Assembly (NCBI GenBank): GCA_018806915.1
Contig: JAGKQI010000088.1
Span: 1,426,001 to 1,490,000 of the forward strand
Direction of reading: 5' to 3'
Source: Phytophthora colocasiae
Lineage: Eukaryota; Oomycota; Peronosporomycetes; Peronosporales; Peronosporaceae
DNA: 64,000 nucleotides
Under the pieces are notes generated by a model. The model saw only the letters and a list, made by a program, of their open reading frames with translations, searched no databases and was not told the origin of the DNA. Numbering within the stretch: position 1 is the stretch's first letter; each line of letters starts with the position of its first letter. Both the position numbers and the translations under genes were made by a program. Shown here one piece after another: positions 2,898 to 49,086 of this stretch.

Positions 2898-2945
2898 GCC
2901 ACTTCAGAGGTTAAGTTCATGCATAAAACTCTATCATTGGCGGCA

Positions 2946-3809: not shown

Positions 3810-4041
3810 GGGATCGCTTTGAATGGCGTCAAGTTGGAGGTGAATCGCCAACGCGGTCACGTTTCTGGCCAGCCAACTGGCCGAGCCCGGAGACTTGCTT
3901 GGAAGCTGCGATGTAGATCTGGCTGGAGCTGTCTTGAGGCCGAATGGAGTCGCCAAACGTCCGAAATACTCGTGATGGAACGTCCGAATCAAAGCTATTC
4001 CTGCGCTACGCCACTTGACCACGCGTAACTTGGCTGGCGCA

Positions 4042-7732: not shown

Positions 7733-7949
7733 GGGATCGCTACTTGTCTGAATTTTGAAGTCTTTTGTGAATTACTACGACCTGGAAGCGTCTGAAGTCG
7801 ACGTACGGATTCGCTTCTGGATGAAGTCGGATTTCTCAGATCGCTTGTGACTGCCGAATTCCGGTGATACCTGGTAACTGGATGGGTATAGGTACTGAGA
7901 TTTTCAAGCCCATCGTCCCGTGCGCCACAAGTTGTGGCCCACAACCAAT

Positions 7950-7999
7950 GGCGAAGAATCCCAAGGCGAAGAATCCCAAGGCGAAGAATCCCAAGGCGA
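7950..7999 (+). repeat. 15-bp minisatellite, about 3.4 copies
   Basis: The unit GGCGAAGAATCCCAA starts at 7950, 7965 and 7980 and is followed by a partial copy. It lies in the gap between the LRR gene and the first glucanase gene. The rest of 7733-8287 shows no gene I can support. Confidence 0.9.
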
Positions 8000-28564: not shown

Positions 28565-28576
28565 CGCCCCCTCCGA

Positions 28577-28894
28577 TGTGACGGGGGTCACACAGCACTT
28601 CACACAGAGGAAGGCTTGGAGTATACTAACTCCTAGTGAACGGCAGTTCACTCGGTCCCCAAAGACTTGGGGAGACTAACTAAAGATTAGGTAGATTTAA
28701 GACTGAATATATTATAGATACTTGTTAGCTTGGCCTGCAATACAAACTAAAAGATATCTATAGTGTAACCTATATAGAAGGTGATAGGTGGCTGCGGAGC
28801 CACCTGCCACGTGTCACCATTATGTGTGACACACATTAAATGTATCCACTTCGGAAGAGTGACTAAAGTCACTCTTCAATGTAACCCCGTTACA
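28577..28894 (-). repeat. Gypsy-1 3' LTR, built of consecutive hairpins
   Basis: 318 bases, nearly identical to 36498-36813. Perfect stems include TGTGAC/GTCACA at the very start, TCCCCAA/TTGGGGA (28656-28673), AGGTGGCT/AGCCACCT (28786-28805), GTGTCAC/GTGACAC (28811-28832), AAGAGTGACT/AGTCACTCTT (28855-28876) and TGTAAC/GTTACA at the very end (28880-28894). Confidence 0.95.
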
Positions 28895-28907
28895 TCCTCC
28901 CCCACTT
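28895..28907 (-). other. Gypsy-1 polypurine tract
   Basis: On the minus strand AAGTGGGGGAGGA directly precedes the 3' LTR, the expected place for the plus-strand primer. Confidence 0.75.
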
Positions 28908-29075
28908 AGATTCGACTCTCGTCCAATCAGAGAAGAGAGAAAATCCCTTCACATTTCTCTCTTCAATGTCGAAATCGATCGACCTGCCGCCAGCTCTTAT
29001 CGCTGCGGCTTCTGCTCTCACAGAGCACAGGGCGCACTGCCAACGCGTACCAGGCTTCCTTGGAAGCCCAGCAAC

Positions 29076-31265
29076 ATGTCTGCAAAGGGTGCAAACCCAG
29101 ACGCGCAAGCGTCTTCACGGAAGAAGGCTGCAAAGCCAACTTCCAAGCCAGCCAAGCCTCGCGGCAAGGCTTCGGCACTTCATGAGGCCACCGATGTGGC
29201 CTCCAGGGCTCTTAGCTCGCCCAGCAGCACTGCTGCGACGGCTAGCCCTAGCCAAAGGCGCAGTAGGTCTCCGACCCTACCGCCTGATACTCGACCGAAT
29301 CCTCGGTTCGAGTATAGGGACCATAGTCCCGGTTCCTGGAGTCCTTCCGAACAGGAAGCGACTCTTGTCAGCTACTCGGGCGACGAGAGCGACAACGGCG
29401 ACGCCGAGGGCAAGCCTGCGGCGGGTGCTCCGACCACGGAGGAGCACCATGGAGACAAGGACACCGCGTCCAAGTCTCCCGACAACACCAGCGGCCGTGG
29501 TGGCGACACTACGCCACCACCTGTCAGACATCTGACACTTGCTGAAGGGCGCGAACGCGCCCGGGCCATTCTGGCAGAGGAGAAGGTGCCCAGCACCAAC
29601 TCCAAGAAGCGTCATGCTTCACAGTCTCCTCGTCAAGACATGACAAGGAGAAGGGAGCTCGAAGAGATCTTCGGCCCCGACGACGTCGACGATGACGACG
29701 CCGATGAGGAGGAGGGGATCGTCCGCGAGCCCCAAGAGATCACTAACGATCTCGATGAGCAGCAAGAGCTCTTTCAGGCTGCTCAACAGCCAATGCGCAC
29801 CGCACCAACGGTCGCACGTGAGTCTCATCAACACGATGAGGACTCTGCCCACCAGCGGGGATTCTACCCGCCCGAGCAAGGCTCGGGAGCTGCTGCGTAT
29901 CTCGAGCAGCTCCAGGACCCACGTCCTCTCATAGGGGGTCATACCTCCAAAGGCGCCTATGAGCGGGCCTTGGTTCAGAAAGAACCTCTCTTTCAAGGCA
30001 ACCTCTCTGTTGCCAGGTGCGTGCTTCTAGCACAGCACCGAATTCCTCTCAAGGAATTCACCTCGCTTCGCAAGAAGCCTGAGACTAAGGGTGGTCTCAA
30101 GCCCACATGGGGTTACCCATGGGTTCTCCCAGAGAACACTGCGTCGTGGGTCGACGCTGAGGACCTCTTCTGGCAATGGGTCCGGTTGACAGTTAAGTCA
30201 ACCCAGGAGTACAACAAACTCCGTGACGAAGATCACCTGGAGGACATCCTCCGCCTCCGGGACCTTCGTGTCCAGTTTGCCCACCTCGTAGGCAAACGTC
30301 AGCTCCATCATCAGATGGAGCGACTGAGAACTGAGTCTCAGTCCAGCGCTCACAATGAGCGCGGGTATGGAACACATATACCTGTGTTCCAACCCCGTTC
30401 AGCGGCTAAGAAGCCGTGGACTACTTACGAGGCTGCCGACGTGCCTCTTCCCAGCACGCGACAGCCTTTGGGCAGTCAACCTGGAGCCGCTCAATCGGCT
30501 CCCAGGTACTCTGCGACGCAGGGTACCCGCGCCACTTCACTCGGAGCTGGCGCTTCCCACCGCGACGCCGCTCCTGGAGAACCCGCTCCACATGGTAGTG
30601 GCGTTCTCCGTTCCAGTCAAGCAAAGCCGGAGGAGGCCTCGCTCGACTGCTCTTTCGAGCCGTCCCCGACGTTGGGGACTCAGAGGCCTTCGACTGGGCC
30701 TCTTGTCCAACTTGTTGCTGAGCAACAGGAGGAGATCCGTCTCCTCCGAGCGCGTGTCCTTGCGCTTGAGGGTGCTCTTGGTCTTGAGCATGGCGGCCAA
30801 GCTGCCCCTGCAGCCGACCTGCCTGGTGTCTTGCGCCAGTTGGAAGACCTGCGTCTCGCGATGCAGGATCTTCATGGTCGTGTAGACCGTAGTGCCCCTT
30901 CGCGGGCACTTGACTCTCTTCGTCAAGAGGTCTACGACCTTCAGGCGACGATGTCTCGCCGGGAGTCGCAACCGTACGCGTACTCCCAGTCGTCGTTCGA
31001 CTCTCGCCTGGGGCCTACTCGCTTTGGCCCCTCGGTGTATCCACACCGCTCGTACCTTCCACCGGGGTACGGCTTCGCCCCTGGGAGTCACCAAACTCCC
31101 TATTACCTGGGGCGCTCTGCGCCTGACGCTCAACCTCGCGTCGAGGAGGTTCACTCTCCTCCTCGCGGCCGCCTTCAACCTCTTGAGGGGCCGCATGACC
31201 CTGAGGGTCATGGTACCGCTTCAGACGACCCACATAAAACGTCGGGTGGGTCGTCATCGACTTAG
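29076..31265 (+). CDS. Antisense 729-codon ORF within Gypsy-1
   Basis: An unbroken frame from ATG 29076 on the strand opposite to gag-pol. It fills the space between the 3' LTR and the chromodomain and then overlaps the chromodomain and the end of integrase in antisense. The N-terminal 210 residues are basic and Ser/Pro-rich, then acidic (DDVDDDDADEEEG). The middle (about 285-430) looks folded: LVQKEPLFQGNLSVARCVLL, WGYPWVLPENTASWVDAEDLF, LRDLRVQFAHLVGKRQLHHQ. A predicted coiled coil lies at about 550-580 (LVAEQQEEIRLLRARVLALE). I recognise no family. It is the longest intact frame in an element whose own pol is broken, which argues that it is or was translated. It could instead be an open frame forced by the palindromic composition, mainly in the overlapping 3' part. 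Confidence 0.5.
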   Translation: MSAKGANPDAQASSRKKAAKPTSKPAKPRGKASALHEATDVASRALSSPSSTAATASPSQRRSRSPTLPPDTRPNPRFEYRDHSPGSWSPSEQEATLVSYSGDESDNGDAEGKPAAGAPTTEEHHGDKDTASKSPDNTSGRGGDTTPPPVRHLTLAEGRERARAILAEEKVPSTNSKKRHASQSPRQDMTRRRELEEIFGPDDVDDDDADEEEGIVREPQEITNDLDEQQELFQAAQQPMRTAPTVARESHQHDEDSAHQRGFYPPEQGSGAAAYLEQLQDPRPLIGGHTSKGAYERALVQKEPLFQGNLSVARCVLLAQHRIPLKEFTSLRKKPETKGGLKPTWGYPWVLPENTASWVDAEDLFWQWVRLTVKSTQEYNKLRDEDHLEDILRLRDLRVQFAHLVGKRQLHHQMERLRTESQSSAHNERGYGTHIPVFQPRSAAKKPWTTYEAADVPLPSTRQPLGSQPGAAQSAPRYSATQGTRATSLGAGASHRDAAPGEPAPHGSGVLRSSQAKPEEASLDCSFEPSPTLGTQRPSTGPLVQLVAEQQEEIRLLRARVLALEGALGLEHGGQAAPAADLPGVLRQLEDLRLAMQDLHGRVDRSAPSRALDSLRQEVYDLQATMSRRESQPYAYSQSSFDSRLGPTRFGPSVYPHRSYLPPGYGFAPGSHQTPYYLGRSAPDAQPRVEEVHSPPRGRLQPLEGPHDPEGHGTASDDPHKTSGGSSST
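30421..30909 (-). pseudogene. Chromodomain at the end of Gypsy-1 pol
   Basis: The minus frame contains a chromodomain, YHVERVLQERRRGGKRQLRV followed by KWRGYPASQSTWEPIERL, ending at a stop at 30421. Such domains sit at the C-terminus of chromovirus integrases and guide insertion to modified histones. The integrase frame stops at 31015, so the domain is cut off by a frameshift or lies in a long degraded linker. Antisense to the plus-strand ORF. Confidence 0.75.
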
Positions 31266-32490
31266 GCAAGTCGATCGTGTAGGCAGCGCCGTGCCTACTC
31301 AGGACCTTGAAGGGTCCAATGAAGCGATGCTTCAACTTGTTGCTCACCGTGGAGCTAACAGTGTTAAGAGGTAGGTTCCTAGTGTCGAGTAGCACTAAGT
31401 CACCCACATTAAATACACTTAAGTTTCCTCTCCCATGTTGGTCTGAGTACTCCTTTTGCTTGTCCTGTGCGAGTGCCATTGCATCTCGCACCCGGCTGAT
31501 CACATTCAGCCTGTTGCCGACAAATGTCGACAACTTCTTCCGCAACGCGGCTGGTTCCACACCGGAAACCTGGGAGGAAAGCTCTTTCCGAGCCTCTCCC
31601 CCACTTACTCTCGAAGCCGCGGTGCCCCCACCCAGTGTGAGCGGCACCTGGGGGTTCCGAAGCCCGTTCAAGTAGAACGGCGTGAACCCCGTTGACGCGT
31701 GTACCGCGTTGTTGAGTGCAAACTCAACCATAGGCAGCTGCGCTGACCAAGAGTGCGGCGCCTCAGCGCAAACACTGCGCAGCACGTCCTCAACCACTCG
31801 GTTGACGCGCTCAGTCTGACCATCGGTCTGCGGATGGTCCGCTGTTGACATCGTCAACCGTGTTCCAAGCAATTGGAACAGCGTTTTCCAAAACGCAGCG
31901 GTAAACCGCGGGTCGCGGTCAGAGACAACAGTCTCAGGCAACCCGTGATAGCGGAAGACGCTATCAAGGAACAACTTCGCAGTTTGTTCCCGGTAATGGT
32001 CTCAGAGACCGGAGCAAGATGCACCATCTTGCTCAACCGGCATACAAACACCACAATGCCGGTGTTCTTCTGGTCATCGGCCGGAAGGCCGAAGACAAAG
32101 TCGAGACTCATCGACTTCCAGCAGTCCAGTGGGACTGGCAGGCTCTGCAGCGGAGCCGACGCGTGCCCCGCAGGCTTCACGCGCTGACATGTTTCACATG
32201 TCTTGATGTATGGCCACCCACATGTACATGTGGGCCCACCAAAACATCAGAGAGACCCCATGATAGGTCTTCTCTCGGCCCAAGTGGCCACTCGAAGGCA
32301 CATCGTGTGCCTCGTGAAGTATATCATACTTCAGATCCTCGTCGTTCGGAACAACGACCCGCGGAGGATCCCCGGGCTCCACCCGATAGTGGAGCAGGCC
32401 ATCGGCCCACTCATAGCGGTGGAGCCGTGCCCGCTGTCGAGGCGTAAGCCATTCGACCTTGGCATCCGTGCCAGCGGACAAATACCGCAC
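31015..32490 (-). pseudogene. Gypsy-1 integrase, in three frames
   Basis: The zinc-binding N-terminal part is at 32490-32194 (YDILHEAHDVPSSGHLGREK). The catalytic core begins at 32180-31975 (CWKSMSLDFVFGLP, with the first Asp) and continues in another frame at 31974-31015 (VVSDRDPRFTAAFWKTLF with the second Asp; HPQTDGQTERVNRVVED with the Glu). A C-terminal GPY/F-like part follows (LKHRFIGPFKVLSRHGAAYT). The DDE triad is present, but frameshifts near 32195 and 31975 break the protein. Confidence 0.88.
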
Positions 32491-33035
32491 AATAGGGGCG
32501 AGGCGTCATCGTCCCGATACGCCAAGCGTATTCGATCGTAAAGATCCGTCGTGGCCCGACTAATATGAGCGAACTCATAGTCGGGCCTGCGCGACAAAGC
32601 GTCGACAAGCGTGTTGAGCTTGCCAGGCTTGTATTCAACGCGGAAGTTATACTCCGCGAAGAATGACAGCCAACGCGCCATCCGCTGCGATAAGTGCGGC
32701 GTATGGATGGCTGTCCGCAAGGACGCGTGGTCCGTATAGACCACAAAGGGCCTTGAGCCCAGAAGATGCACCCTGAACTTGACAAGGGCATACTTCATCG
32801 ACAAGAGTTCCTTGTCGTGAACGGGATAATTCCGTTCGGCAGCCTTCAGCTGCCTGGACTGGAACGAGATCACCCTATCTCGTCCCTCATCGTCCTGTTG
32901 CAATAGCGCACAGCCAATTGCATAGTCGGAAGCGTCACAGACAACGCTAAACGACTTGGCATCGTCCGGCAACGCCAGGACGGGCGCGCATTGCAAGCTC
33001 GCCTTGATGCTATCAAAAGCATCCTGGTGCTGGCG
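32331..33035 (-). pseudogene. Gypsy-1 RNase H
   Basis: This is the same frame as reverse transcriptase, after an in-frame TAG at 33036-33038. It contains SVVCDASDYAIGCALLQQD, YPVHDKELLSMKYALVKFR and YTDHASLRT, the RNase H motifs of Ty3/gypsy elements, then the tether part LSRRPDYEFAHI. The frame is lost near 32490. Confidence 0.88.
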
Positions 33036-34946
33036 CTACCAGCACCACTCGGCCTCCTTCTTCAGAAGGTCCGACAAAGGCTTTGCGAGTCCCGCATAGC
33101 CAGCACTGTACTTGTGCAAGTAGTTGGCTAAGCCCAACCACTTCCTCAGGTCCTTCTGTGACCGAGGAACAGGCCATGCCGCAATGGCTTTGACCTTGTC
33201 AGGATCCGCTCGGACCCCGACGCTGCTGACGAAGCAGCCGAGGACCTTAATCTCCTCAGCTGCGAAGACGCACTTGTCGATGTTGGCATAGAGCTTGTTA
33301 GCTCTCATGACCTCAAACACTCGACGGAGGTGCTCTCGATGCACCTCTATAGCCGTCTTGCCTCCCTCGGCACGGCTATGGACGAATATATCGTCAAAGT
33401 ACGTCTGCGTGAACGCACGCAAAGGTCTAAACAACTGTGTGACCAAGCGATTGAAGGTCGCTGGTGCGTTGGATAGACCTTGTGGCATTACCAGCCACTC
33501 CCAGAGCATACCGCTCGGCGTGCTCACGGCCGTGAGCGGGATATCACACTCCCGCATCATGATCTGGTAGTATCCATCCACCAGATCCAGCGCGCTATAC
33601 AGCGTGCAGCCGGCCATGTTGTTCAACAACACATCCTTGCGAGGGATCGGCGTCTGTGCTGGCACAGTCGCGCTGTTCAGCTTATTGTAAGCATGAACCA
33701 GACGCCACTTCCCGTTCGGCTTGCGAACGCAGAAGGTTGGCGTCGAGTGCGGGGACTTCGATTCCCGCACCATTCCCGCTTTCGCCTTAGCGGCGAAGAA
33801 CGCGTCAATGACGTCGCTCTGCTCTCGGGGCAGGGGCCATTGACGCGTGACACAATACTTTGTGCCTGGCACGAGATCAATCTCGTGCCTGATCCCTCGG
33901 TCTGGTGGGAGCTTTGAGGGTGGGTCCTTGGACACCACGTCCTCAAACTCCTTCACTAAAGGATACAGCGGATCCTTTGGATTCTTCAGAATCTCTGAGC
34001 CCGTGCGCGACGCACGTTGCTTCCGGAACTCCTCCAGGACGTCTTCGTCCATCACTGAGGAGGAGTTCAACTCCTCTGGAGTGGGCTCCGGCCTAAGGAG
34101 AACCATCTCCGATATCTCCCCGGCCTTCAACTCGGCCAGGAAGTCCTCCATCGCGACTTCCTCGAGGTTCAATAGCTCTGATACCTCAGGCAGGGGTGCC
34201 AACTCGATGGCCCCCGCCTTCACGCGATGCCCGGTCACGCCGTCGAAGATGTGATAGCATTCTTCGACCGACTGTGACCTAGGAGCCTTTAGCTCCTGTC
34301 CCAAGTCCTCGTGGACCTCTTCGGGATGGTATTCTACCAACCCCGGCTTACGACCATGGCGTGGGGTTAACTTACCCACGCCAGGTGATGCCACTACGAT
34401 GGCATCACGAGCCCTCATGGCTCCGTGCGGAACTGCGTTACCCGCATCGGAAGCACCCTTGGTGTCTTCCTGATCAGTTATGGTCTGAGCGACCTTGCGT
34501 GGAACTACTTCTCTCACGCCTGGTGATGCCACTACTTCGGCATCACGAGCCCTCGTGGCTCCATGCGGAACTCTTTGATCCGCTTGTGGACCTAAGTTAC
34601 CCACCTGGTTAGTGCTCTCGGGCACTACCACAGTCGCAGCCTGTACGTCGCTGCGACTTCGTGCGTGGGGCCCTGCTATCGTTGCAGACCCACACGTAGG
34701 GCAAGGGCCTCCGCCCGTTGCCCCGGCCATCCATGGCCCACGATCACTTCTCGTGTGGGGCGATGTAGCACCGACTACACCAGCCCCCAAATACTCCTCG
34801 GACGCTGCCGCGTCCTGGCGGTTCCAGCGAACGCCCTTAGTCCTGACAGAGGTGGGAACATGACTCACCAAAGCTCTGTCAGAGACTGCAGGCCGGCTAG
34901 CCCCAATGGCTTTGCCGCCAATCGATCCAGGGCTCGTGCTTCTCAA
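33036..34946 (-). pseudogene. Gypsy-1 reverse transcriptase, ended by a nonsense codon
   Basis: The frame carries a long spacer with an internal duplication (34380-34580 region: VPHGATRARDAEVVASPGV and VPHGAMRARDAIVVASPGV) and then the polymerase: DRGIRHEIDLVPGTKYCVTR, FCVRKPNGKWRLVHAYNKLN, LDLVDGYYQIMM, the active site YFDDIFVHS, and WLGLANYLHKY. The active site has FDD where YVDD or YIDD is usual in gypsy elements; the two aspartates are kept. The frame stops at TAG 33036-33038, exactly between reverse transcriptase and RNase H. That TAG is in the loop of a 9-bp perfect hairpin. Confidence 0.9.
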
Positions 34947-35244
34947 GCCACGGCATCCCTAGGATCAAGTCGTACTTGTCCATCTCGAGGACAATGAACG
35001 ACTCCACGCTGTCGAAGTCCTCAAACTTCACAGCCAGGTCCACCTGGACCTTTGGTACTTCCACCACCGTACCATCGGCTAGTCGTACGGCGACTAGCCC
35101 ACTTCCCTCGCTCTCACGTAGAGCGTCCTCAAACTTGCCGCGATTCCTTGCGACAGTTTGTCGGCGAGCAAAGTTCTTGCTCGCCCCAGAGTCTATCAAG
35201 ACTCTAAAGGGGTTGTTAAACCCCCGTACACTCGCGTGTACCAC
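34897..35244 (-). pseudogene. Gypsy-1 aspartic protease
   Basis: The frame contains FRVLIDSGASKNFARRQ, with the DSG catalytic motif of retroviral-type proteases, and DLILGMPWLEKHEPWIDWRQ, the usual C-terminal motif. It overlaps the reverse transcriptase frame by 50 bases in a different phase, which could be a frameshift mutation or a programmed shift. Confidence 0.85.
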
Positions 35245-35372
35245 CAGCAGCCCACCGCTGCCCTTCTCCGCTTTGAGAGTCCCAAGACTCTCTGGGGCTA
35301 AGTCTCCACTGCGTGTGCCTCCCGCACCACCCGCATGGGGACTTAGTGTTTCCCCAGTAGGGCGCCCCGCCC

Positions 35373-36413
35373 CTACTGGTCCCCGGAGTTCCCCTGACTC
35401 TTGGGCGCCGGCTTCTTCCAGCGGCCCTTAGAGCCTTGAGGCTTGGAAGACCTCTTCCATTGCCCCCCAGAGGGGCAGACACGTGCGAAGTGTCCGAAAC
35501 GCCCGCACTCGAAACAGCGGATTCGTTTCTGCTCGGCGAGCCCCAAGTCCATAGGGGCTGGTCCCGAGCCTGCTTCATTCCCAGGAGCACTGGCCGACGC
35601 CGTCGTCGGCCCGCTGTGGCCTTGCCACGCAGAGGCAGGAGTCTGAGCCTGTGTATGGCTGTACTCCTCCTGGAGCGCGACTTGAATCGCCTCCTCCATC
35701 GTGTTGACCTGCACGCGGAACAGTTGCGTGCGGGCCGGGCTTACTCTTAAGCCGTCCATGAACACAGTTACTTGGATGTGTTCAGGTAGGGGGTTCCCTA
35801 CCAGAGATGCCGCGAGAACGCGCATCTCTTGGATGTACTCGTGCAGGTCACGTTTCCCTTGCTTGCAGGCTAGGAAGCGTAACCGCTGGCGATACTCATA
35901 GTTCGCCGGGAGGAATGCGGCCCGAAGCTGTTCGCACAGCTGGGCCCAGGATGTAAAACATCCAGGCGACGTCGCTTCGCGCGTGTACGCCCATGTCTTC
36001 GCTCGACCCCCGAGGTTAGACAGCGCGAAAGCGACCCGAAGTCGCTCCACCGAGATGAGAGCCGCCTCCATGGCGAGCTCAACTTCTCGGATCCAGAAGT
36101 GAAGGTTTTCACCTTCTTTCCCTTCATAGGGAAGAACCTTGAGTCTTAAAGGCTTGGGTTGAACCGGCCTCGGTTCAACCACAGGAGCCTCAAAGGTTCC
36201 TCGAACGTGCTCAATGAGCCCACGTTCGTACATGTCGAACGCCGCCACGCGTTCGACCTGCTCGGCCGGCGTCGCCGCCGCCACGCGTTCGACCTGCTCG
36301 GCCGGCGTCGCCGCCGCCAAGCTTCGGAAGGCATCCATCCCAAAGATGCCCGCCATCTTCCGGACCGACTCAAACTGAGAGTCGGTCAAGTGAGGAAACT
36401 CACTTCGATCCAT
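35373..36413 (-). CDS. Gypsy-1 gag
   Basis: 346 residues from ATG 36413. The capsid-like part has FWIREVELAMEAALIS, WAQLCEQLRAAFLP and FLACKQGKRDLHEYIQEM, typical of Ty3/gypsy gag. A CCHC zinc knuckle follows near residues 300-315 (CFECGRFGHFARVC), then a basic tail. A tandem duplication of 39 bases (36242-36318) repeats ATPAEQVERVAA. The frame is intact, unlike pol. Gag builds the cytoplasmic particle and packs the RNA. Confidence 0.9.
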   Translation of the reverse strand: MDRSEFPHLTDSQFESVRKMAGIFGMDAFRSLAAATPAEQVERVAAATPAEQVERVAAFDMYERGLIEHVRGTFEAPVVEPRPVQPKPLRLKVLPYEGKEGENLHFWIREVELAMEAALISVERLRVAFALSNLGGRAKTWAYTREATSPGCFTSWAQLCEQLRAAFLPANYEYRQRLRFLACKQGKRDLHEYIQEMRVLAASLVGNPLPEHIQVTVFMDGLRVSPARTQLFRVQVNTMEEAIQVALQEEYSHTQAQTPASAWQGHSGPTTASASAPGNEAGSGPAPMDLGLAEQKRIRCFECGRFGHFARVCPSGGQWKRSSKPQGSKGRWKKPAPKSQGNSGDQ

Positions 36414-36497
36414 GGTGGCCAACTACTTCTGGCCACAGAGGATTCAGGTAATCAATCTACCCGCGTAGGCGTAGGATTGACTACAAGTGCTACCAAG

Positions 36498-36813
36498 TGT
36501 GACGGGGGTCACACAGCACTTCACACAGAGGAAGGCTTGGAGTATACTAACTCCTAGTGAACGGCAGTTCACTCGGTCCCCAAAGACTTGGGGAGACTAA
36601 CTAAAGATTAGGTAGATTTAAGACTGAATATATTATAGATACTTGTTAGCTTGGCCTGCAATACAAACTAAAAGATATCTATAGTGTAACCTATATAGAA
36701 GGTGATAGGTGGCTGCGGAGCCACCTGCCACGTGTCACCATTATGTGTGACACACCAAATGTATCCACTTCGGAAGAGTGACTAAAGTCACTCTTCAATG
36801 TAACCCCGTTACA
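36498..36813 (-). repeat. Gypsy-1 5' LTR
   Basis: 316 bases, nearly identical to 28577-28894. On the minus strand CTTGGTAGCACTTG follows directly and is the likely primer site (contains TGG); I cannot name the tRNA. Confidence 0.95.
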
Positions 36814-36852
36814 TCCGAAGTCACTTCTTCGGCAAAGGCTCCTTGGATTGAC

Positions 36853-37964
36853 CTAGCAGAGCACAAAGTTTCTCGTGTCGCGCTCCTGCCAGGGGCTTCG
36901 TAAAATGTCGGACGGGTTGTCGTCCGTGTGAACTTTCCACAGGTCCACAGTCTTCTTCGTCGCTTGGTCACGCACGTAGTGCCATCGAAGCTCGATGTGT
37001 CGAGTACGTCTACTATACGTAGGATTAGTCGCCATCACGAAGGCTGGTTGTCAATCCCAAACGTAAAGCTCACCGCTAGTTCCGGGAACACTTCAATTAG
37101 GATGTTTCGTAGACTTTGACCCTCCATGCATGCTTCGCACGCCGCAACGTACTCGGCCTCAGCGGTAGACTGAGCAACAATCGTCTGGCGCCTTGATGCC
37201 CATGATACGGCACCGCCGGCCAGATTCACGACGTAGCCCGAAATACTCTTTCTTGTGTCGGGGTCGTTGCCCCAGTCCGAGTCGCAGTATCCGTCCAGGT
37301 GCAAGTCCTTCTTGTCTTCCTCATCCTTGCTGGTGGAGTACACAATGCCTTGACTCTTTGTTCCAACAAGATACCGCAACAATCGTTTAGCTGCACCAAT
37401 GTGCTGCTGTGTCGGTGCTTGTACGTATCGACTCAACTGTCCGACCACGTACGCAATGTCTGGTCTACTGCATGTAGCTAGGTACATCAGAGAACCAATG
37501 CATTCTCGGTAAGGAAAGTCTCTGCCAAACGCTGGTTTCTGCTTACGACGATCACTTTCATCATCAGTATCCTTCGAAGTAAACCGAGTGTTGGTTTCCA
37601 TCGGAATCCTGCTCGCGTGAGCATCTCCAAAATTGAATCTTTCCAAAACCTCCGTGCAATACTGTGTTTGATGAATCTTCATCGAGGTGGTGTTCTGCTC
37701 CACTTCAACGCCCAAGTACTTATTCAGCAATCCCTGGTCCTTGAGTCCGTAGTCGTTGTCGAGCTTGGTAAACAACTTGACCTTAAACGCTTCGTCCTTT
37801 GTAGCGCAAAGAATGTCGTCTACGTAGATCAGGACTAGCGCAAACTGGCCATCGTGTTTGTAGACATACAGGCAAGGCTCTGTGCTGTTGCGCTCGAAAC
37901 CATAGTCTTTCAACCAACCGTCAAACTCGGAATTCCACTCCCTACCAGATTGCCTCCAGACCAT
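36853..37964 (-). pseudogene. Copia-2 end of reverse transcriptase and RNase H
   Basis: This is the only copy of the true 3' end of Copia-2 pol. After the end of reverse transcriptase (PTQQHIGAAKRLLRYLVGTK) it continues into RNase H: DGYCDSDWGNDPDTRKSISG, WASRRQTIVAQSTAEAEYVA, then GIDNQPS and a shift near 37036 to HIELRWHYVRDQATKKTVDL. The stop at 36853 is 54 bases from the 3' LTR once Gypsy-1 is removed. Domain order confirms Ty1/copia. Confidence 0.88.
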
Positions 37965-39584
37965 ACAGAGCCTTGTTCACCGAGTAAATGTGTCCCTCTA
38001 GCTCACAGGGATAACCTTCCAGCCCGTCCAGATACTGCTTTATCGATAAGGCAGCGTTCAGGTAAGCGGTATTCACGTCTCCTTGGTAGATCACTAGTCC
38101 AAGCCACACACACATCGCGACAAATAGTCTGAACGTGGCCATCCTCGCCACCGGTGAGAACGTTTCTTGGTAATCAATACCGCGTCGCTGCTTATCTCCA
38201 CGAGCAACAATGCGAGTCTTAAACGGAGTCACATAGCCAAGGTGATCCACTTTCAAAGCAAAGATCCACATCGTCTTAATTGTCTGTTGAGTCGCTGGCA
38301 TATCTGATCTTGGTATCATACTCAGCACTTCTTTGTCCTTTAGAGCTTGAATCTCTTGATCCATAGCCTCTTTCCACTCCTTGGCATACTTCGATCTCAT
38401 TGCCTCTCTGTATGTCCTTGGGATTTTCACCTCACAAGCACGAATACCACCAGATCCTCGGCGGTTAGCATGCAGTGCCTTGAAACCCGAGCTCACTTCA
38501 TAGTCCTCAAAGCGCTTTGGTGGTCGTCTTTCATGTTCTTCGCGGAGACCTGGTCTGCGTGAAGTGTTCTCTGATTTGAATCGCTTCACGTCGACCTTAG
38601 TACGCTTCCTGTCTTGTGTGCGTCGAACTTCAACCTCTCGAGGTCGTCTGTGACCGATGATGTGGTTTTGTTGGTAGTGCAAGCTCTTGGCAGCCAATCG
38701 GGACTAATGCGTGTTCTCCACTATCAGCACCATCTTCATATTCATCACTTGGAACTAACGCCTGGTCATCACCCCAGTCAATGGCTTCAGCTTCATCACT
38801 TGGATCAAACAAATCATCATAATTCCCCTCAACACTACTTGCTTCTTCTTCAGCTATTTGTGTGAGGTTCGACACATGACTGGCAGATCCAGCCAATTCT
38901 TCATCATCAGTGTCTTCATCAAGGTCACTATTGTCTCTTTCAATGTCTTCATCGACGCCCTGGTCTTCAAAACCATCAACACTTTCTGCGTCGACACTTC
39001 CAGCGTCTCTATCGTGAGTTTGGTCATTAACGCACCCAACAGCAACACTTCCAGCACTTTCGCCCTCCTGCGTCTCGGACGCATCTTCATAATCGGGCAG
39101 CTCAGTGTTCTGTAGCATCTCTTCCCACAAAGCCTGGTTTTCACTCGTCAAACTGTATGAGCTACTTGGAACTTTGTCACCACACGAGCCACAATCTCCT
39201 TCACCTAGTTTGTCCCACACAGTGCCGTTCTCAAGTGGTTGATCTTCGTCGTTTATTCCTTCACTGTTCGCGCTCTCCATGACAATGTCACTCATACTGT
39301 GTTCAGATTCGCCATCACACTCCAGCCAACTGCGAGTCATTATCTTCTTCATCACCTGGCAGGTCATCAAATTCACCGTCCTCAAAGAACTCTTGGAATG
39401 TCCGTAGCCACTTGTCGACCTTGACCTTGAACCCGCTCTCGTAGCGGTCCTTATATTTGATGCTCTCATTCACCTTGACATCAGAGACGAATCCAGTCTT
39501 GTGTTCCGTCGGGAAATACACGTTGCAGCCAACCACGTCCTCTCGGTAGCCTAGCAGAAAGCCAACTCGACAGTTCATACTGAG
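37386..39584 (-). repeat. Copia-2 tandem unit 1 (2199 bp)
   Basis: Left-most unit, joined to the real RNase H. It has the extra C at CCTCCAGACC (about 37953), the longer AC run (about 38105), four T in GGTTTTGTTGG (about 38665) and a private extra C near 39319. The reverse transcriptase start (38697-37942) and the rest are in separate frames. Confidence 0.93.
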
Positions 39585-42141
39585 TTTAGCTGCACCAATG
39601 TGCTGCTGTGTCGGTGCTTGTACGTATCGACTCAACTGTCCGACCACGTACGCAATGTCTGGTCTACTGCATGTAGCTAGGTACATCAGAGAACCAATGC
39701 ATTCTCGGTAAGGAAAGTCTCTGCCAAACGCTGGTTTCTGCTTACGACGATCACTTTCATCATCAGTATCCTTCGAAGTAAACCGAGTGTTGGTTTCCAT
39801 CGGAATCCTGCTCGCGTGAGCATCTCCAAAATTGAATCTTTCCAAAACCTCCGTGCAATACTGTGTTTGATGAATCTTCATCGAGGTGGTGTTCTGCTCC
39901 ACTTCAACGCCCAAGTACTTATTCAGCAATCCCTGGTCCTTGAGTCCGTAGTCGTTGTCGAGCTTGGTAAACAACTTGACCTTAAACGCTTCGTCCTTTG
40001 TAGCGCAAAGAATGTCGTCTACGTAGATCAGGACTAGCGCAAACTGGCCATCGTGTTTGTAGACATACAGGCAAGGCTCTGTGCTGTTGCGCTCGAAACC
40101 ATAGTCTTTCAACCAACCGTCAAACTCGGAATTCCACTCCCTACCAGATTGCCTCCAGACCATACAGAGCCTTGTTCACCGAGTAAATGTGTCCCTCTAG
40201 CTCACAGGGATAACCTTCCAGCCCGTCCAGATACTGCTTTATCGATAAGGCAGCGTTCAGGTAAGCGGTATTCACGTCTCCTTGGTAGATCACTAGTCCA
40301 AGCCACACACACATCGCGACAAATAGTCTGAACGTGGCCATCCTCGCCACCGGTGAGAACGTTTCTTGGTAATCAATACCGCGTCGCTGCTTATCTCCAC
40401 GAGCAACAATGCGAGTCTTAAACCGAGTCACATAGCCAAGGTGATCCACTTTCAAAGCAAAGATCCACATCGTCTTAATTGTCTGTTGAGTCGCTGGCAT
40501 ATCTGATCTTGGTATCATACTCAGCACTTCTTTGTCCTTTAGAGCTTGAATCTCTTGATCCATAGCCTCTTTCCACTCCTTGGCATACTTCGATCTCATT
40601 GCCTCTCTGTATGTCCTTGGGATTTTCACCTCACAAGCACGAATACCACCAGATCCTCGGCGGTTAGCATGCAGTGCCTTGAAACCCGAGCTCACTTCAT
40701 AGTCCTCAAAGCGCTTTGGTGGTCGTCTTTCATGTTCTTCGCGGAGACCTGGTCTGCGTGAAGTGTTCTCTGATTTGAATCGCTTCACGTCGACCTTAGT
40801 ACGCTTCCTGTCTTGTGTGCGTCGAACTTCAACCTCTCGAGGTCGTCTGTGACCGATGATGTGGTTTGTTGGTCACCCGTGGGATCTCGACGACCTCGTG
40901 ATGAGGCCTCGGACGCTTCAAGCTCGAAGCGTCCGCGCAGTGATGATGAAGCGTCCCCCATGTCGAGGGCGCTCACTGCACCGCGCACTGATCCGCCAGT
41001 GCGCACGCCATGGATGCCTACTGAGGCGGAGATCCATGACCGGTTCGGTGCTAGTTCACCACCGAACCCGATACTGTTGTACTCATGCAACAGTATCAAC
41101 GACGACGACGTCGCCGCTAAGGTTGTCTTTGAGTCCGAGACTCAAAGACGCGACTACTATATCGGGCTCTTCCACGAGCTCCGATACTACGCAGCGAAGA
41201 AGACTTCGCGCAAGAGCAAAGTGCCAGAGTGGCAGTGCAAGCTCTTGGCAGCCAATCGGGACTAATGCGTGTTCTCCACTATCAGCACCATCTTCATATT
41301 CATCACTTGGAACTAACGCCTGGTCATCACCCCAGTCAATGGCTTCAGCTTCATCACTTGGATCAAACAAATCATCATAATTCCCCTCAACACTACTTGC
41401 TTCTTCTTCAGCTATTTGTGTGAGGTTCGACACATGACTGGCAGATCCAGCCAATTCTTCATCATCAGTGTCTTCATCAAGGTCACTATTGTCTCTTTCA
41501 ATGTCTTCATCGACGCCCTGGTCTTCAAAACCATCAACACTTTCTGCGTCGACACTTCCAGCGTCTCTATCGTGAGTTTGGTCATTAACGCACCCAACAG
41601 CAACACTTCCAGCACTTTCGCCCTCCTGCGTCTCGGACGCATCTTCATAATCGGGCAGCTCAGTGTTCTGTAGCATCTCTTCCCACAAAGCCTGGTTTTC
41701 ACTCGTCAAACTGTATGAGCTACTTGGAACTTTGTCACCACACGAGCCACAATCTCCTTCACCTAGTTTGTCCCACACAGTGCCGTTCTCAAGTGGTTGA
41801 TCTTCGTCGTTTATTCCTTCACTGTTCGCGCTCTCCATGACAATGTCACTCATACTGTGTTCAGATTCGCCATCACACTCAGCCAACTGCGAGTCATTAT
41901 CTTCTTCATCACCTGGCAGGTCATCAAATTCACCGTCCTCAAAGAACTCTTGGAATGTCCGTAGCCACTTGTCGACCTTGACCTTGAACCCGCTCTCGTA
42001 GCGGTCCTTATATTTGATGCTCTCATTCACCTTGACATCAGAGACGAATCCAGTCTTGTGTTCCGTCGGGAAATACACGTTGCAGCCAACCACGTCCTCT
42101 CGGTAGCCTAGCAGAAAGCCAACTCGACAGTTCATACTGAG
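39585..42141 (-). repeat. Copia-2 tandem unit 2 (2557 bp, with 360-bp insert)
   Basis: Has the extra C (about 40153), the longer AC run and three T. It carries the hairpin-dense insert at 40874-41233. Confidence 0.93.
40874..41233 (+). repeat. 360-bp hairpin-dense insert in unit 2
   Basis: Foreign block between TTGGT and AGTGC of the Copia-2 unit, no target duplication seen. Stems include GACGCTTC/GAAGCGTC, GCGCACTG/CAGTGCGC, GGTTCGGT/ACCGAACC with a one-base offset, ATACTGTTG/CAACAGTAT and TCTTTGAGT/ACTCAAAGA. The plus strand is open in one frame through it (SDASSSKRPRSDDEASPMSR, KVVFESETQRRDYYIGLFHE). It resembles Gypsy-1 in style, not in sequence. Confidence 0.8.
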
Positions 42142-44699
42142 TTTAGCTGCACCAATGTGCTGCTGTGTCGGTGCTTGTACGTATCGACTCAACTGTCCGA
42201 CCACGTACGCAATGTCTGGTCTACTGCATGTAGCTAGGTACATCAGAGAACCAATGCATTCTCGGTAAGGAAAGTCTCTGCCAAACGCTGGTTTCTGCTT
42301 ACGACGATCACTTTCATCATCAGTATCCTTCGAAGTAAACCGAGTGTTGGTTTCCATCGGAATCCTGCTCGCGTGAGCATCTCCAAAATTGAATCTTTCC
42401 AAAACCTCCGTGCAATACTGTGTTTGATGAATCTTCATCGAGGTGGTGTTCTGCTCCACTTCAACGCCCAAGTACTTATTCAGCAATCCCTGGTCCTTGA
42501 GTCCGTAGTCGTTGTCGAGCTTGGTAAACAACTTGACCTTAAACGCTTCGTCCTTTGTAGCGCAAAGAATGTCGTCTACGTAGATCAGGACTAGCGCAAA
42601 CTGGCCATCGTGTTTGTAGACATACAGGCAAGGCTCTGTGCTGTTGCGCTCGAAACCATAGTCTTTCAACCAACCGTCAAACTCGGAATTCCACTCCCTA
42701 CCAGATTGCCTCAGACCATACAGAGCCTTGTTCACCGAGTAAATGTGTCCCTCTAGCTCACAGGGATAACCTTCCAGCCCGTCCAGATACTGCTTTATCG
42801 ATAAGGCAGCGTTCAGGTAAGCGGTATTCACGTCTCCTTGGTAGATCACTAGTCCAAGCCACACACATCGCGACAAATAGTCTGAACGTGGCCATCCTCG
42901 CCACCGGTGAGAACGTTTCTTGGTAATCAATACCGCGTCGCTGCTTATCTCCACGAGCAACAATGCGAGTCTTAAACCGAGTCACATAGCCAAGGTGATC
43001 CACTTTCAAAGCAAAGATCCACATCGTCTTAATTGTCTGTTGAGTCGCTGGCATATCTGATCTTGGTATCATACTCAGCACTTCTTTGTCCTTTAGAGCT
43101 TGAATCTCTTGATCCATAGCCTCTTTCCACTCCTTGGCATACTTCGATCTCATTGCCTCTCTGTATGTCCTTGGGATTTTCACCTCACAAGCACGAATAC
43201 CACCAGATCCTCGGCGGTTAGCATGCAGTGCCTTGAAACCCGAGCTCACTTCATAGTCCTCAAAGCGCTTTGGTGGTCGTCTTTCATGTTCTTCGCGGAG
43301 ACCTGGTCTGCGTGAAGTGTTCTCTGATTTGAATCGCTTCACGTCGACCTTAGTACGCTTCCTGTCTTGTGTGCGTCGAACTTCAACCTCTCGAGGTCGT
43401 CTGTGACCGATGATGTGGTTTGTTGGTCACCCGTGGGATCTCGACGACCTCGTGATGAGGCCTCGGACGCTTCAAGCTCGAAGCGTCCGCGCAGTGATGA
43501 TGAAGCGTCCCCCATGTCGAGGGCGCTCACTGCACCGCGCACTGATCCGCCAGTGCGCACGCCATGGATGCCTACTGAGGCGGAGATCCATGACCGGTTC
43601 GGTGCTAGTTCACCACCGAACCCGATACTGTTGTACTCATGCAACAGTATCAGCGGACGACGACGCGGTCGCCGCTAAGGTTGTCTTTGAGTCCGAGACT
43701 CAAAGACGCGACTACTATATCGGGCTCTTCCACGAGCTCCAATACTACGCAGCGAAGAAGACTTCGCGCAAGAGCAAAGTGCCAGAGTGGCAGTGCAAGC
43801 TCTTGGCAGCCAATCGGGACTAATGCGTGTTCTCCACTATCAGCACCATCTTCATATTCATCACTTGGAACTAACGCCTGGTCATCACCCCAGTCAATGG
43901 CTTCAGCTTCATCACTTGGATCAAACAAATCATCATAATTCCCCTCAACACTACTTGCTTCTTCTTCAGCTATTTGTGTGAGGTTCGACACATGACTGGC
44001 AGATCCAGCCAATTCTTCATCATCAGTGTCTTCATCAAGGTCACTATTGTCTCTTTCAATGTCTTCATCGACGCCCTGGTCTTCAAAACCATCAACACTT
44101 TCTGCGTCGACACTTCCAGCGTCTCTATCGTGAGTTTGGTCATTAACGCACCCAACAGCAACACTTCCAGCACTTTCGCCCTCCTGCGTCTCGGACGCAT
44201 CTTCATAATCGGGCAGCTCAGTGTTCTGTAGCATCTCTTCCCACAAAGCCTGGTTTTCACTCGTCAAACTGTATGAGCTACTTGGAACTTTGTCACCACA
44301 CGAGCCACAATCTCCTTCACCTAGTTTGTCCCACACAGTGCCGTTCTCAAGTGGTTGATCTTCGTCGTTTATTCCTTCACTGTTCGCGCTCTCCATGACA
44401 ATGTCACTCATACTGTGTTCAGATTCGCCATCACACTCAGCCAACTGCGAGTCATTATCTTCTTCATCACCTGGCAGGTCATCAAATTCACCGTCCTCAA
44501 AGAACTCTTGGAATGTCCGTAGCCACTTGTCGACCTTGACCTTGAACCCGCTCTCGTAGCGGTCCTTATATTTGATGCTCTCATTCACCTTGACATCAGA
44601 GACGAATCCAGTCTTGTGTTCCGTCGGGAAATACACGTTGCAGCCAACCACGTCCTCTCGGTAGCCTAGCAGAAAGCCAACTCGACAGTTCATACTGAG
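42142..44699 (-). repeat. Copia-2 tandem unit 3 (2558 bp, with 364-bp insert)
   Basis: Lacks the extra C and has the shorter AC run. It carries the second copy of the insert at 43428-43791. A 626-codon frame (42963-41083) runs from reverse transcriptase across the junction at 42142 into the integrase end and acidic spacer of unit 2. Confidence 0.93.
43428..43791 (+). repeat. 364-bp hairpin-dense insert in unit 3
   Basis: Same block as 40874-41233 with a 4-base length change near 43652 and a substitution that breaks one stem (CTCCGATAC against CTCCAATAC). The insert therefore entered one unit before that unit was copied. Confidence 0.8.
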
Positions 44700-46892
44700 T
44701 TTAGCTGCACCAATGTGCTGCTGTGTCGGTGCTTGTACGTATCGACTCAACTGTCCGACCACGTACGCAATGTCTGGTCTACTGCATGTAGCTAGGTACA
44801 TCAGAGAACCAATGCATTCTCGGTAAGGAAAGTCTCTGCCAAACGCTGGTTTCTGCTTACGACGATCACTTTCATCATCAGTATCCTTCGAAGTAAACCG
44901 AGTGTTGGTTTCCATCGGAATCCTGCTCGCGTGAGCATCTCCAAAATTGAATCTTTCCAAAACCTCCGTGCAATACTGTGTTTGATGAATCTTCATCGAG
45001 GTGGTGTTCTGCTCCACTTCAACGCCCAAGTACTTATTCAGCAATCCCTGGTCCTTGAGTCCGTAGTCGTTGTCGAGCTTGGTAAACAACTTGACCTTAA
45101 ACGCTTCGTCCTTTGTAGCGCAAAGAATGTCGTCTACGTAGATCAGGACTAGCGCAAACTGGCCATCGTGTTTGTAGACATACAGGCAAGGCTCTGTGCT
45201 GTTGCGCTCGAAACCATAGTCTTTCAACCAACCGTCAAACTCGGAATTCCACTCCCTACCAGATTGCCTCAGACCATACAGAGCCTTGTTCACCGAGTAA
45301 ATGTGTCCTCTAGCTCACAGGGATAACCTTCCAGCCCGTCCAGATACTGCTTTATCGATAAGGCAGCGTTCAGGTAAGCGGTATTCACGTCTCCTTGGTA
45401 GATCACTAGTCCAAGCCACACACATCGCGACAAATAGTCTGAACGTGGCCATCCTCGCCACCGGTGAGAACGTTTCTTGGTAATCAATACCGCGTCGCTG
45501 CTTATCTCCACGAGCAACAATGCGAGTCTTAAACCGAGTCACATAGCCAAGGTGATCCACTTTCAAAGCAAAGATCCACATCGTCTTAATTGTCTGTTGA
45601 GTCGCTGGCATATCTGATCTTGGTATCATACTCAGCACTTCTTTGTCCTTTAGAGCTTGAATCTCTTGATCCATAGCCTCTTTCCACTCCTTGGCATACT
45701 TCGATCTCATTGCCTCTCTGTATGTCCTTGGGATTTTCACCTCACAAGCACGAATACCACCAGATCCTCGGCGGTTAGCATGCAGTGCCTTGAAACCCGA
45801 GCTCACTTCATAGTCCTCAAAGCGCTTTGGTGGTCGTCTTTCATGTTCTTCGCGGAGACCTGGTCTGCGTGAAGTGTTCTCTGATTTGAATCGCTTCACG
45901 TCGACCTTAGTACGCTTCCTGTCTTGTGTGCGTCGAACTTCAACCTCTCGAGGTCGTCTGTGACCGATGATGTGGTTTGTTGGTAGTGCAAGCTCTTGGC
46001 AGCCAATCGGGACTAATGCGTGTTCTCCACTATCAGCACCATCTTCATATTCATCACTTGGAACTAACGCCTGGTCATCACCCCAGTCAATGGCTTCAGC
46101 TTCATCACTTGGATCAAACAAATCATCATAATTCCCCTCAACACTACTTGCTTCTTCTTCAGCTATTTGTGTGAGGTTCGACACATGACTGGCAGATCCA
46201 GCCAATTCTTCATCATCAGTGTCTTCATCAAGGTCACTATTGTCTCTTTCAATGTCTTCATCGACGCCCTGGTCTTCAAAACCATCAACACTTTCTGCGT
46301 CGACACTTCCAGCGTCTCTATCGTGAGTTTGGTCATTAACGCACCCAACAGCAACACTTCCAGCACTTTCGCCCTCCTGCGTCTCGGACGCATCTTCATA
46401 ATCGGGCAGCTCAGTGTTCTGTAGCATCTCTTCCCACAAAGCCTGGTTTTCACTCGTCAAACTGTATGAGCTACTTGGAACTTTGTCACCACACGAGCCA
46501 CAATCTCCTTCACCTAGTTTGTCCCACACAGTGCCGTTCTCAAGTGGTTGATCTTCGTCGTTTATTCCTTCACTGTTCGCGCTCTCCATGACAATGTCAC
46601 TCATACTGTGTTCAGATTCGCCATCACACTCAGCCAACTGCGAGTCATTATCTTCTTCATCACCTGGCAGGTCATCAAATTCACCGTCCTCAAAGAACTC
46701 TTGGAATGTCCGTAGCCACTTGTCGACCTTGACCTTGAACCCGCTCTCGTAGCGGTCCTTATATTTGATGCTCTCATTCACCTTGACATCAGAGACGAAT
46801 CCAGTCTTGTGTTCCGTCGGGAAATACACGTTGCAGCCAACCACGTCCTCTCGGTAGCCTAGCAGAAAGCCAACTCGACAGTTCATACTGAG
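44700..46892 (-). repeat. Copia-2 tandem unit 4 (2193 bp)
   Basis: Lacks the extra C and has the shorter AC run, three T and a private loss of one C near 45307. With unit 5 it holds a 1000-codon frame (48317-45315) that passes through the junction at 46893. Confidence 0.93.
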
Positions 46893-49086
46893 TTTAGCTG
46901 CACCAATGTGCTGCTGTGTCGGTGCTTGTACGTATCGACTCAACTGTCCGACCACGTACGCAATGTCTGGTCTACTGCATGTAGCTAGGTACATCAGAGA
47001 ACCAATGCATTCTCGGTAAGGAAAGTCTCTGCCAAACGCTGGTTTCTGCTTACGACGATCACTTTCATCATCAGTATCCTTCGAAGTAAACCGAGTGTTG
47101 GTTTCCATCGGAATCCTGCTCGCGTGAGCATCTCCAAAATTGAATCTTTCCAAAACCTCCGTGCAATACTGTGTTTGATGAATCTTCATCGAGGTGGTGT
47201 TCTGCTCCACTTCAACGCCCAAGTACTTATTCAGCAATCCCTGGTCCTTGAGTCCGTAGTCGTTGTCGAGCTTGGTAAACAACTTGACCTTAAACGCTTC
47301 GTCCTTTGTAGCGCAAAGAATGTCGTCTACGTAGATCAGGACTAGCGCAAACTGGCCATCGTGTTTGTAGACATACAGGCAAGGCTCTGTGCTGTTGCGC
47401 TCGAAACCATAGTCTTTCAACCAACCGTCAAACTCGGAATTCCACTCCCTACCAGATTGCCTCAGACCATACAGAGCCTTGTTCACCGAGTAAATGTGTC
47501 CCTCTAGCTCACAGGGATAACCTTCCAGCCCGTCCAGATACTGCTTTATCGATAAGGCAGCGTTCAGGTAAGCGGTATTCACGTCTCCTTGGTAGATCAC
47601 TAGTCCAAGCCACACACACATCGCGACAAATAGTCTGAACGTGGCCATCCTCGCCACCGGTGAGAACGTTTCTTGGTAATCAATACCGCGTCGCTGCTTA
47701 TCTCCACGAGCAACAATGCGAGTCTTAAACCGAGTCACATAGCCAAGGTGATCCACTTTCAAAGCAAAGATCCACATCGTCTTAATTGTCTGTTGAGTCG
47801 CTGGCATATCTGATCTTGGTATCATACTCAGCACTTCTTTGTCCTTTAGAGCTTGAATCTCTTGATCCATAGCCTCTTTCCACTCCTTGGCATACTTCGA
47901 TCTCATTGCCTCTCTGTATGTCCTTGGGATTTTCACCTCACAAGCACGAATACCACCAGATCCTCGGCGGTTAGCATGCAGTGCCTTGAAACCCGAGCTC
48001 ACTTCATAGTCCTCAAAGCGCTTTGGTGGTCGTCTTTCATGTTCTTCGCGGAGACCTGGTCTGCGTGAAGTGTTCTCTGATTTGAATCGCTTCACGTCGA
48101 CCTTAGTACGCTTCCTGTCTTGTGTGCGTCGAACTTCAACCTCTCGAGGTCGTCTGTGACCGATGATGTGGTTTGTTGGTAGTGCAAGCTCTTGGCAGCC
48201 AATCGGGACTAATGCGTGTTCTCCACTATCAGCACCATCTTCATATTCATCACTTGGAACTAACGCCTGGTCATCACCCCAGTCAATGGCTTCAGCTTCA
48301 TCACTTGGATCAAACAAATCATCATAATTCCCTCAACACTACTTGCTTCTTCTTCAGCTATTTGTGTGAGGTTCGACACATGACTGGCAGATCCAGCCAA
48401 TTCTTCATCATCAGTGTCTTCATCAAGGTCACTATTGTCTCTTTCAATGTCTTCATCGACGCCCTGGTCTTCAAACCATCAACACTTTCTGCGTCGACAC
48501 TTCCAGCGTCTCTATCGTGAGTTTGGTCATTAACGCACCCAACAGCAACACTTCCAGCACTTTCGCCCTCCTGCGTCTCGGACGCATCTTCATAATCGGG
48601 CAGCTCAGTGTTCTGTAGCATCTCTTCCCACAAAGCCTGGTTTTCACTCGTCAAACTGTATGAGCTACTTGGAACTTTGTCACCACACGAGCCACAATCT
48701 CCTTCACCTAGTTTGTCCCACACAGTGCCGTTCTCAAGTGGTTGATCTTCGTCGTTTATTCCTTCACTGTTCGCGCTCTCCATGACAATGTCACTCATAC
48801 TGTGTTCAGATTCGCCATCACACTCAGCCAACTGCGAGTCATTATCTTCTTCATCACCTGGCAGGTCATCAAATTCACCGTCCTCAAAGAACTCTTGGAA
48901 TGTCCGTAGCCACTTGTCGACCTTGACCTTGAACCCGCTCTCGTAGCGGTCCTTATATTTGATGCTCTCATTCACCTTGACATCAGAGACGAATCCAGTC
49001 TTGTGTTCCGTCGGGAAATACACGTTGCAGCCAACCACGTCCTCTCGGTAGCCTAGCAGAAAGCCAACTCGACAGTTCATACTGAG
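46893..49086 (-). repeat. Copia-2 tandem unit 5 (2194 bp)
   Basis: Lacks the extra C but has the longer AC run. Private losses of one C (about 48331) and one A (about 48475) break the acidic spacer. Confidence 0.93.

Follow-up and report, generated by a model that had tools for sequence, protein, structure and literature searches.

Why does a retrotransposon in the genome of Phytophthora colocasiae carry short perfect hairpins along its whole length, and what might select for them? The question is raised by a Ty3/gypsy LTR retrotransposon on the minus strand at 28577..36813 of the window, the 64,000-nucleotide stretch of DNA analysed here. The original prediction held that hairpins are packed into the element from end to end, that its codons are constrained by pairing, and that the cause might be either selection on the RNA or a copying process that perfects near-palindromes during reverse transcription.

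Anatomy and hairpin content of the element and its relatives

The ends predicted for the element were exact. Both LTRs, the 316-bp 5' LTR (36498..36813, minus strand) and the 318-bp 3' LTR (28577..28894, minus strand), have TG..CA ends and are 99% identical over 321 aligned columns, and the element is flanked by a 5-bp target-site duplication, TCCGA, with its left copy at 28572..28576 and its right copy at 36814..36818. A purine-rich stretch of the coding strand that adjoins the 3' LTR (28895..28909, minus strand) is, judging from its sequence, likely the polypurine tract. The gag frame (35373..36422, minus strand) matches Retrotrans_gag, Ty3_capsid and a zinc knuckle. The pol region (31015..34946, minus strand), with an RT frame (33036-34946) and an SH3 domain at the integrase end (31015-31974), is interrupted in the window copy; the order PR-RT-RNaseH-IN is found in an open frame of the natural copy L002, whose integrase zinc domain scores above the Pfam cut-off and whose integrase core match falls below it. 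Yeast Ty3, an element of the same kind, is likewise organised into LTRs, gag and PR-RT-RH-IN. An open frame of 800 codons (28863..31262, plus strand) runs antisense in the interval from pol to the 3' LTR and has no Pfam match. Two points of the original description need correction: gag and pol are on the minus strand, and the hairpins first singled out (30184-30390) lie outside gag-pol and inside the antisense frame.

Two further features of the window concern repeats. A tandem duplication of about 100 bp is present near 34385-34546 in the window copy, and copies L009-L027 seem to be without it. A Copia pol segment (RVT_2, SH3_retrovirus) occurs in eight tandem copies (37258-55360) at a spacing of 2.19-2.56 kb. 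Many of its 300-nt blocks do not differ at all between copies (100% identity), and a few drop to 71-84% in one copy; the array may exist as such in the genome or stem from the assembly.

Perfect stems with loops of 3-12 nt were counted and compared with 40 dinucleotide shuffles. The element contains 165, 78, 42 and 19 stems of at least 6, 7, 8 and 9 bp, with 18.1, 4.7, 1.2 and 0.4 expected; the 4.7 expected in 8.2 kb agrees with the early estimate of one 7-bp stem per 1-2 kb. As had been claimed, similar stems occur in the LTRs, gag and pol, and each part exceeds its shuffles for stems of at least 6 bp: 9 stems versus 0.7 in the 5' LTR, 10 versus 0.9 in the 3' LTR, 37 versus 3.7 in the gag stretch (34947-36497, minus strand), 64 versus 8.3 in the pol stretch (31263-34946, minus strand) and 44 versus 6.6 in the 3' stretch (28895-31262). 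The corresponding densities per kb are 31.4 and 28.5 in the two LTRs, 23.9, 17.4 and 18.6. Counts per 250 bp jump at both LTR ends, which are the element ends, and the flanks stay near chance, at most 1.6-fold (77 versus 64.1 on the left, 22 versus 13.7 on the right). Copia and host genes had been described as showing no such excess to the eye; the Copia array has 24 stems of at least 6 bp versus 39.3 in shuffles, and 10 of at least 8 bp versus 2.5, the latter in eight-fold repeated sequence.

Six perfect hairpins lie within 30184..30391: the five named originally, all correctly placed and one of them longer than described (30368-30391, 9 bp), and a sixth of 8 bp at 30322-30343; four of them stand back to back (30302-30321, 30322-30343, 30346-30362 and 30368-30391). 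Across the element, 160 non-overlapping hairpins cover 38% of the sequence, and neighbours are separated by 0-3 nt in 41 gaps versus 16.4 expected. Loop lengths of stems of at least 6 bp peak at 4 nt (37 versus 1.3), and the excess drops towards background beyond about 12 nt. A conserved tetraloop motif was rejected, the 4-nt loops having no evident common sequence; the comparison was confined to loops of this length. No stem with a loop of up to 12 nt is longer than 11 bp, a figure that refers to perfect stems and not to helices of predicted folds. There is little or no stem extension past the first mismatch: at least 2 further pairs follow in 7.4% of stems versus 6.1% in shuffles, and at least 3 further pairs, one mismatch or one-base bulge being allowed, in 7.4% versus 4.8%.

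The excess was then sought in other loci, the original prediction having suggested a comparison with other oomycete gypsy families. All 30 family loci (the best 30 of 112 listed RT-protein matches in the genome, L001 being the window's own) carry it, with 12.4 to 22.1 stems of at least 6 bp per kb, 5.8-10.8 times their shuffles. None of 30 other RVT_1 loci exceeds 1.9 times its shuffles; these are the best 30 of 150 listed matches, many of which look like copies of a few families, and they therefore do not represent 30 independent families. Several of these unstructured loci among L037-L060 have fewer short stems than their shuffles. The hairpin observation is thus confirmed: the excess is genuine and strong, and among the examined loci it is peculiar to one element lineage. 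A search of IMG/VR for relatives returned one pattern match, and none was confirmed.

A sister family, represented by loci L061 and L062, shares 58% amino acid identity in RT with the structured family and shows a weaker excess of 3.2- to 3.5-fold (80 and 67 stems in 9.9 kb versus 21-23 in shuffles), which in L062 is strongest around gag. L062 also has an antisense open frame of 679 codons (1377-3413) in the same place, with a weak match of 29% amino acid identity over 190 aa. Conservation of most individual hairpins was rejected, as most sister stems are at other positions. Stems of at least 7 bp are fully paired in L061 in 1 of 27 cases in RT and 1 of 11 in gag, and in L062 in 0 of 26 and 1 of 11; for stems of at least 6 bp the fractions are 6/58 and 2/31 in L061 and 4/57 and 2/31 in L062. 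One gag stem of at least 7 bp that is fully paired in the sister family carries two compensatory pairs. Single hairpins thus appear to come and go between the families, which seem to differ mainly in the amount of folding; since most stem positions are unconserved, it is the folding itself that seems to be kept.

The mean folding-energy difference (MFED) was calculated in 350-nt windows with ten dinucleotide shuffles each, 23 windows per strand, and amounts to 28.9% for the sense and 35.0% for the antisense strand of the element (28.1% and 33.7% for the two strands in a rerun with eight shuffles); all 23 sense windows are at 13.5-48%. The antisense strand has the higher MFED and not the lower energy (-156.5 versus -163.9 for sense). 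The sister locus L061 reaches 11.6% and 15.5%, six other RT loci range from -7.4 to 2.7%, and host DNA has means of -0.9 and -2.5% with single windows up to 15.7%. Loci L040, L043, L048 and L050 fold less well than their shuffles (-3.4 to -7.4%).

Codons, variants and pairing in the sense RNA

The claim that codons are constrained by pairing was examined by permuting codons among synonymous positions, 100 times per frame, and it held. The 1297-codon frame of L002 contains 72 stems versus 12.5 in codon-preserving shuffles (maximum 24 of 100) and 16.7 (maximum 27) when the junction dinucleotides are preserved as well; six further family frames and the RT frame of the window agree in the codon shuffles. 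The antisense frame behaves likewise, with 45 stems versus 8.3 (maximum 17). Sister-family frames have 33 and 25 stems versus 11.3 and 9.2, and four frames of other families are at chance with 7, 6, 3 and 4 stems versus about 6. The equal counts in shuffled sequence that would have undone the original prediction were not obtained with dinucleotide, codon or codon-plus-dinucleotide shuffles, all of which fall far below the element.

Variants among the copies provide a second line of evidence. For gag-pol, 30 aligned copies were compared (sense 840-5285), leaving out columns that had under 15 bases and any stem that overlapped a longer one. Private variants, those found in one copy and presumably mostly post-insertion, are evenly spread (132/1070 stem, 65/455 loop and 371/2905 other sites). 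Variants common to at least three copies occur at 15/1070 stem, 26/455 loop and 46/2905 other sites, so that their rate in stems is a quarter of that in loops (p=7e-6), without being lower than at the remaining non-loop sites (p=0.77). The shared/private ratio of stems against the rest gives p values of 0.0035-0.12 across the five natural copies used. Loops in gag-pol hold more shared variants than even the sites outside stems and loops; perhaps some structure at the latter has gone unrecognised. In the 3' stretch (sense 5250-7950; nine copies, HSP mapping, columns with fewer than 6 bases excluded), shared variants number 3/642 at stem, 9/270 at loop and 47/1779 at other sites (stem versus other p=0.0003), and private ones 23, 17 and 87. 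Stems are therefore less variable than loops in both regions, and less variable than other sites in the 3' stretch only. Within the antisense frame, which is interrupted at differing places in six other copies, non-synonymous to synonymous variants stand at 32:22 for shared and 81:32 for private ones.

The kind of change tolerated in stems differs between the strands. Transitions in gag-pol stems that leave a sense G-U or A-C pair stand at 17:2 among variants shared by two or more copies versus 35:40 among private ones (p=0.0007), and when stems are defined by four other natural copies the G-U:A-C counts run from 12:1 to 17:3 (p 0.0021-0.0044). The same mutation classes among shared variants outside stems stand at 38:58 (p=8e-5 against 17:2). 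A sense A-C pair is an antisense G-U pair, and the asymmetry thus points to the sense RNA. The bias is weaker when 5-bp stems are included (18:8), the 2:1 of the 3' stretch is too few for a strand test, and a pairwise comparison with L063 gives 9:10 in gag-pol and 7:3 in the 3' stretch. The extension of existing stems by G-U pairs shows no clear strand preference, so that the strand argument rests on the variants. Some shared variants were inherited jointly within subfamilies, four of 25 stem ones lying at sense 989-1022 in five copies each; variants on the same subfamily branch are not fully independent, and the p values are optimistic. Taken from sequence comparison, the variant and codon data point to selection for base pairing in the sense RNA, and the stem depletion relative to loops and the sense G-U bias fit the cause proposed at the outset, selection on RNA.

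Candidate functions and competing explanations

We consider it probable, at roughly 60%, that the sense transcript, which is both genomic RNA and mRNA, has been selected for near-complete folding into short independent hairpins, with escape from silencing as a less certain benefit. Nearly the whole transcript would be folded in this way, so that an LTR retrotransposon would possess genome-scale ordered RNA structure; the stems, originating for the most part from point changes, would be replaced over time without loss of the overall folding. A transcript made of hairpins of 6-11 bp would leave little free sequence for pairing with small RNAs or antisense RNA and would offer no duplex long enough for Dicer, and, less surely, could in this way escape host silencing. 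Transcription of the antisense frame, if it occurs, would yield a full complement to part of the genomic RNA, so that duplexes would be a special hazard for this lineage to avoid. The host genome has 12 matches to Piwi domains and 6 to RNase III domains, two pairs of the latter apparently in single frames. Gypsy elements of Phytophthora infestans have small RNAs of either orientation mapping along them, according to the available text of the report (PMC3522703). For maize, a correlation between small RNAs and the secondary structures predicted in genes and transposons is reported in the accessible part of the source (PMC10760457), which speaks against simple shielding. A more elaborate version, put forward only tentatively, is that an ambisense LTR retrotransposon rewrote its whole genome into mini-hairpins, so that the sense RNA and the RNA of the antisense frame both stay folded and never form long double-stranded RNA; this would be a structural counter-defence against RNAi, evolved stepwise in one gypsy lineage.

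Shielding from silencing is the preferred candidate function, and compaction for packaging is its main rival. For the single-stranded RNA phages, a compact hairpin-rich genome has been proposed to serve packaging. Applied to the element, the dense and closely spaced hairpins would provide the virus-like particle with a compact genome that resists nucleases, and Gag would bind hairpins as a class. The same script gives MS2 an MFED of 29.5% on the genomic and 23.9% on the other strand and Qbeta 33.7% and 29.0%, values like those of the element; the back-to-back arrangement would also suit packaging, as would the fact that LTRs and gag are densest in stems. Packaging with nuclease resistance explains this anatomy almost as well. 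However, no sequence-specific Gag signal was seen, the 4-nt loops compared showing no conserved loop or stem motif of a packaging hairpin and gag-pol loops being the most variable sites, and the excess is lacking from the 30 other RT loci, whose RNA is presumably packaged as well. As an explanation of the folding, packaging seems rather unlikely.

A copying process, by template switching or fold-back in reverse transcription, could generate perfect inverted repeats without any benefit. It would suit the perfection of the stems, with continuation past the first mismatch at the chance rate only, and the confinement of the excess to one retroelement lineage among the loci examined. Continuation at chance, however, is also no more than shuffles give, and the arms tell against copying: in 45 stems, divergence from the sister family is not concentrated in one arm (variance 3.0, null 3.34 +- 0.58), the sister family being too diverged for recent events to be seen. 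Stem and non-stem codons are equally conserved at the amino acid level in comparison with that family (identity 0.737 and 0.725). In L002 the registers (1:3,2:2,3:1), (1:1,2:3,3:2) and (3:3,1:2,2:1) hold 35, 17 and 20 stems versus 4.7, 2.7 and 5.1, so that registers with the third codon position in two of three pairs are modestly over-represented (52/72, p=0.03); three more family copies, which are not independent, show a similar pattern, and the sister family has no register preference (9, 11 and 13 stems across the three registers). Together with the filtering of shared stem variants towards sense G-U, the stem continuation, arm symmetry and register data led to rejection of a copying artefact, and the perfecting of near-palindromes imagined in the original prediction is very improbable.

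Equally improbable is selection on hairpins in DNA or cDNA (cruciforms, single-stranded cDNA) and not in RNA: pairing in the stems is Watson-Crick whichever strand is read, and good folding extends to the antisense strand, but the shared stem variants are strand-asymmetric, sense G-U being kept and A-C lost, and on this bias a DNA-only structure was rejected. The three types of shuffle practically rule out chance, composition, codon usage and protein sequence as the source of the hairpins.

Relation to known structured genomes and significance

The sense-RNA folding favoured here has well-described counterparts. Genome-wide ordered RNA structure (GORS) is documented in positive-strand RNA viruses (PMC7642675; PMC3950689, in the text available), and the suggestion that no such element class had been described thus applies to retrotransposons, within the open-licence literature, and not to those viruses. 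The likeness extends, by the accessible portions of these two sources, to folding of the whole genome, with an element MFED far above 3%, and to paired sites being less variable than unpaired ones; pairings are unconserved in position between relatives, as reported for coronaviruses (PMC7642675, same portion), and duplexes do not exceed 11 bp, the limit that an unpublished analysis of predicted folds gave for GORS duplexes, 'most >8 bp' (PMC3950689, available text). The element is nevertheless an LTR retrotransposon and not an RNA virus; it resembles GORS and is not classed as viral GORS. Its MFED of 29-35% compares with 15% for SARS-CoV-2, 7.5-10.7% for HCV and 12.5% for human pegivirus, and with 23.4%, the highest reported among vertebrate RNA viruses (PMC7642675, available text), all of these values being based on a shuffling algorithm different from the present one. 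It also differs in being built of perfect short hairpins, mostly of 6-8 bp, at about nine times the chance density. MS2 and Qbeta (Leviviricetes) are comparable in MFED by the same script, whereas their perfect short stems reach about 2 and 2.9 times chance (16 versus 7.9 and 25 versus 8.7), so the phage folding is built differently. Yeast Ty3, for its part, has a SHAPE-mapped genomic RNA with local well-folded regions, 14 of them in vivo, and the word GORS is absent from the available text of that paper (PMC11381356). No earlier report of genome-wide ordered RNA structure in a retrotransposon was found among the papers listed from the open-licence PMC literature, as judged by titles and the beginnings of abstracts. 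The viral kind of genome-wide ordered RNA structure thus seems to be present in an LTR retrotransposon, as strong as in the phages and unusual in consisting of perfect mini-hairpins.

In RNA viruses, pervasive folding has been linked to persistence, and its purpose is unsettled. Such folding, otherwise seen in some RNA viruses, likely protects or compacts the RNA of the element; it would extend genome-wide RNA structure to LTR retrotransposons and would show that the codon choice of a transposon can be under strong structural selection. A structured family, a half-structured sister and unstructured RT families in one genome form a natural experiment: with one host and, in part, one protein set in common, the families can be compared for small-RNA load, packaging and copy number.
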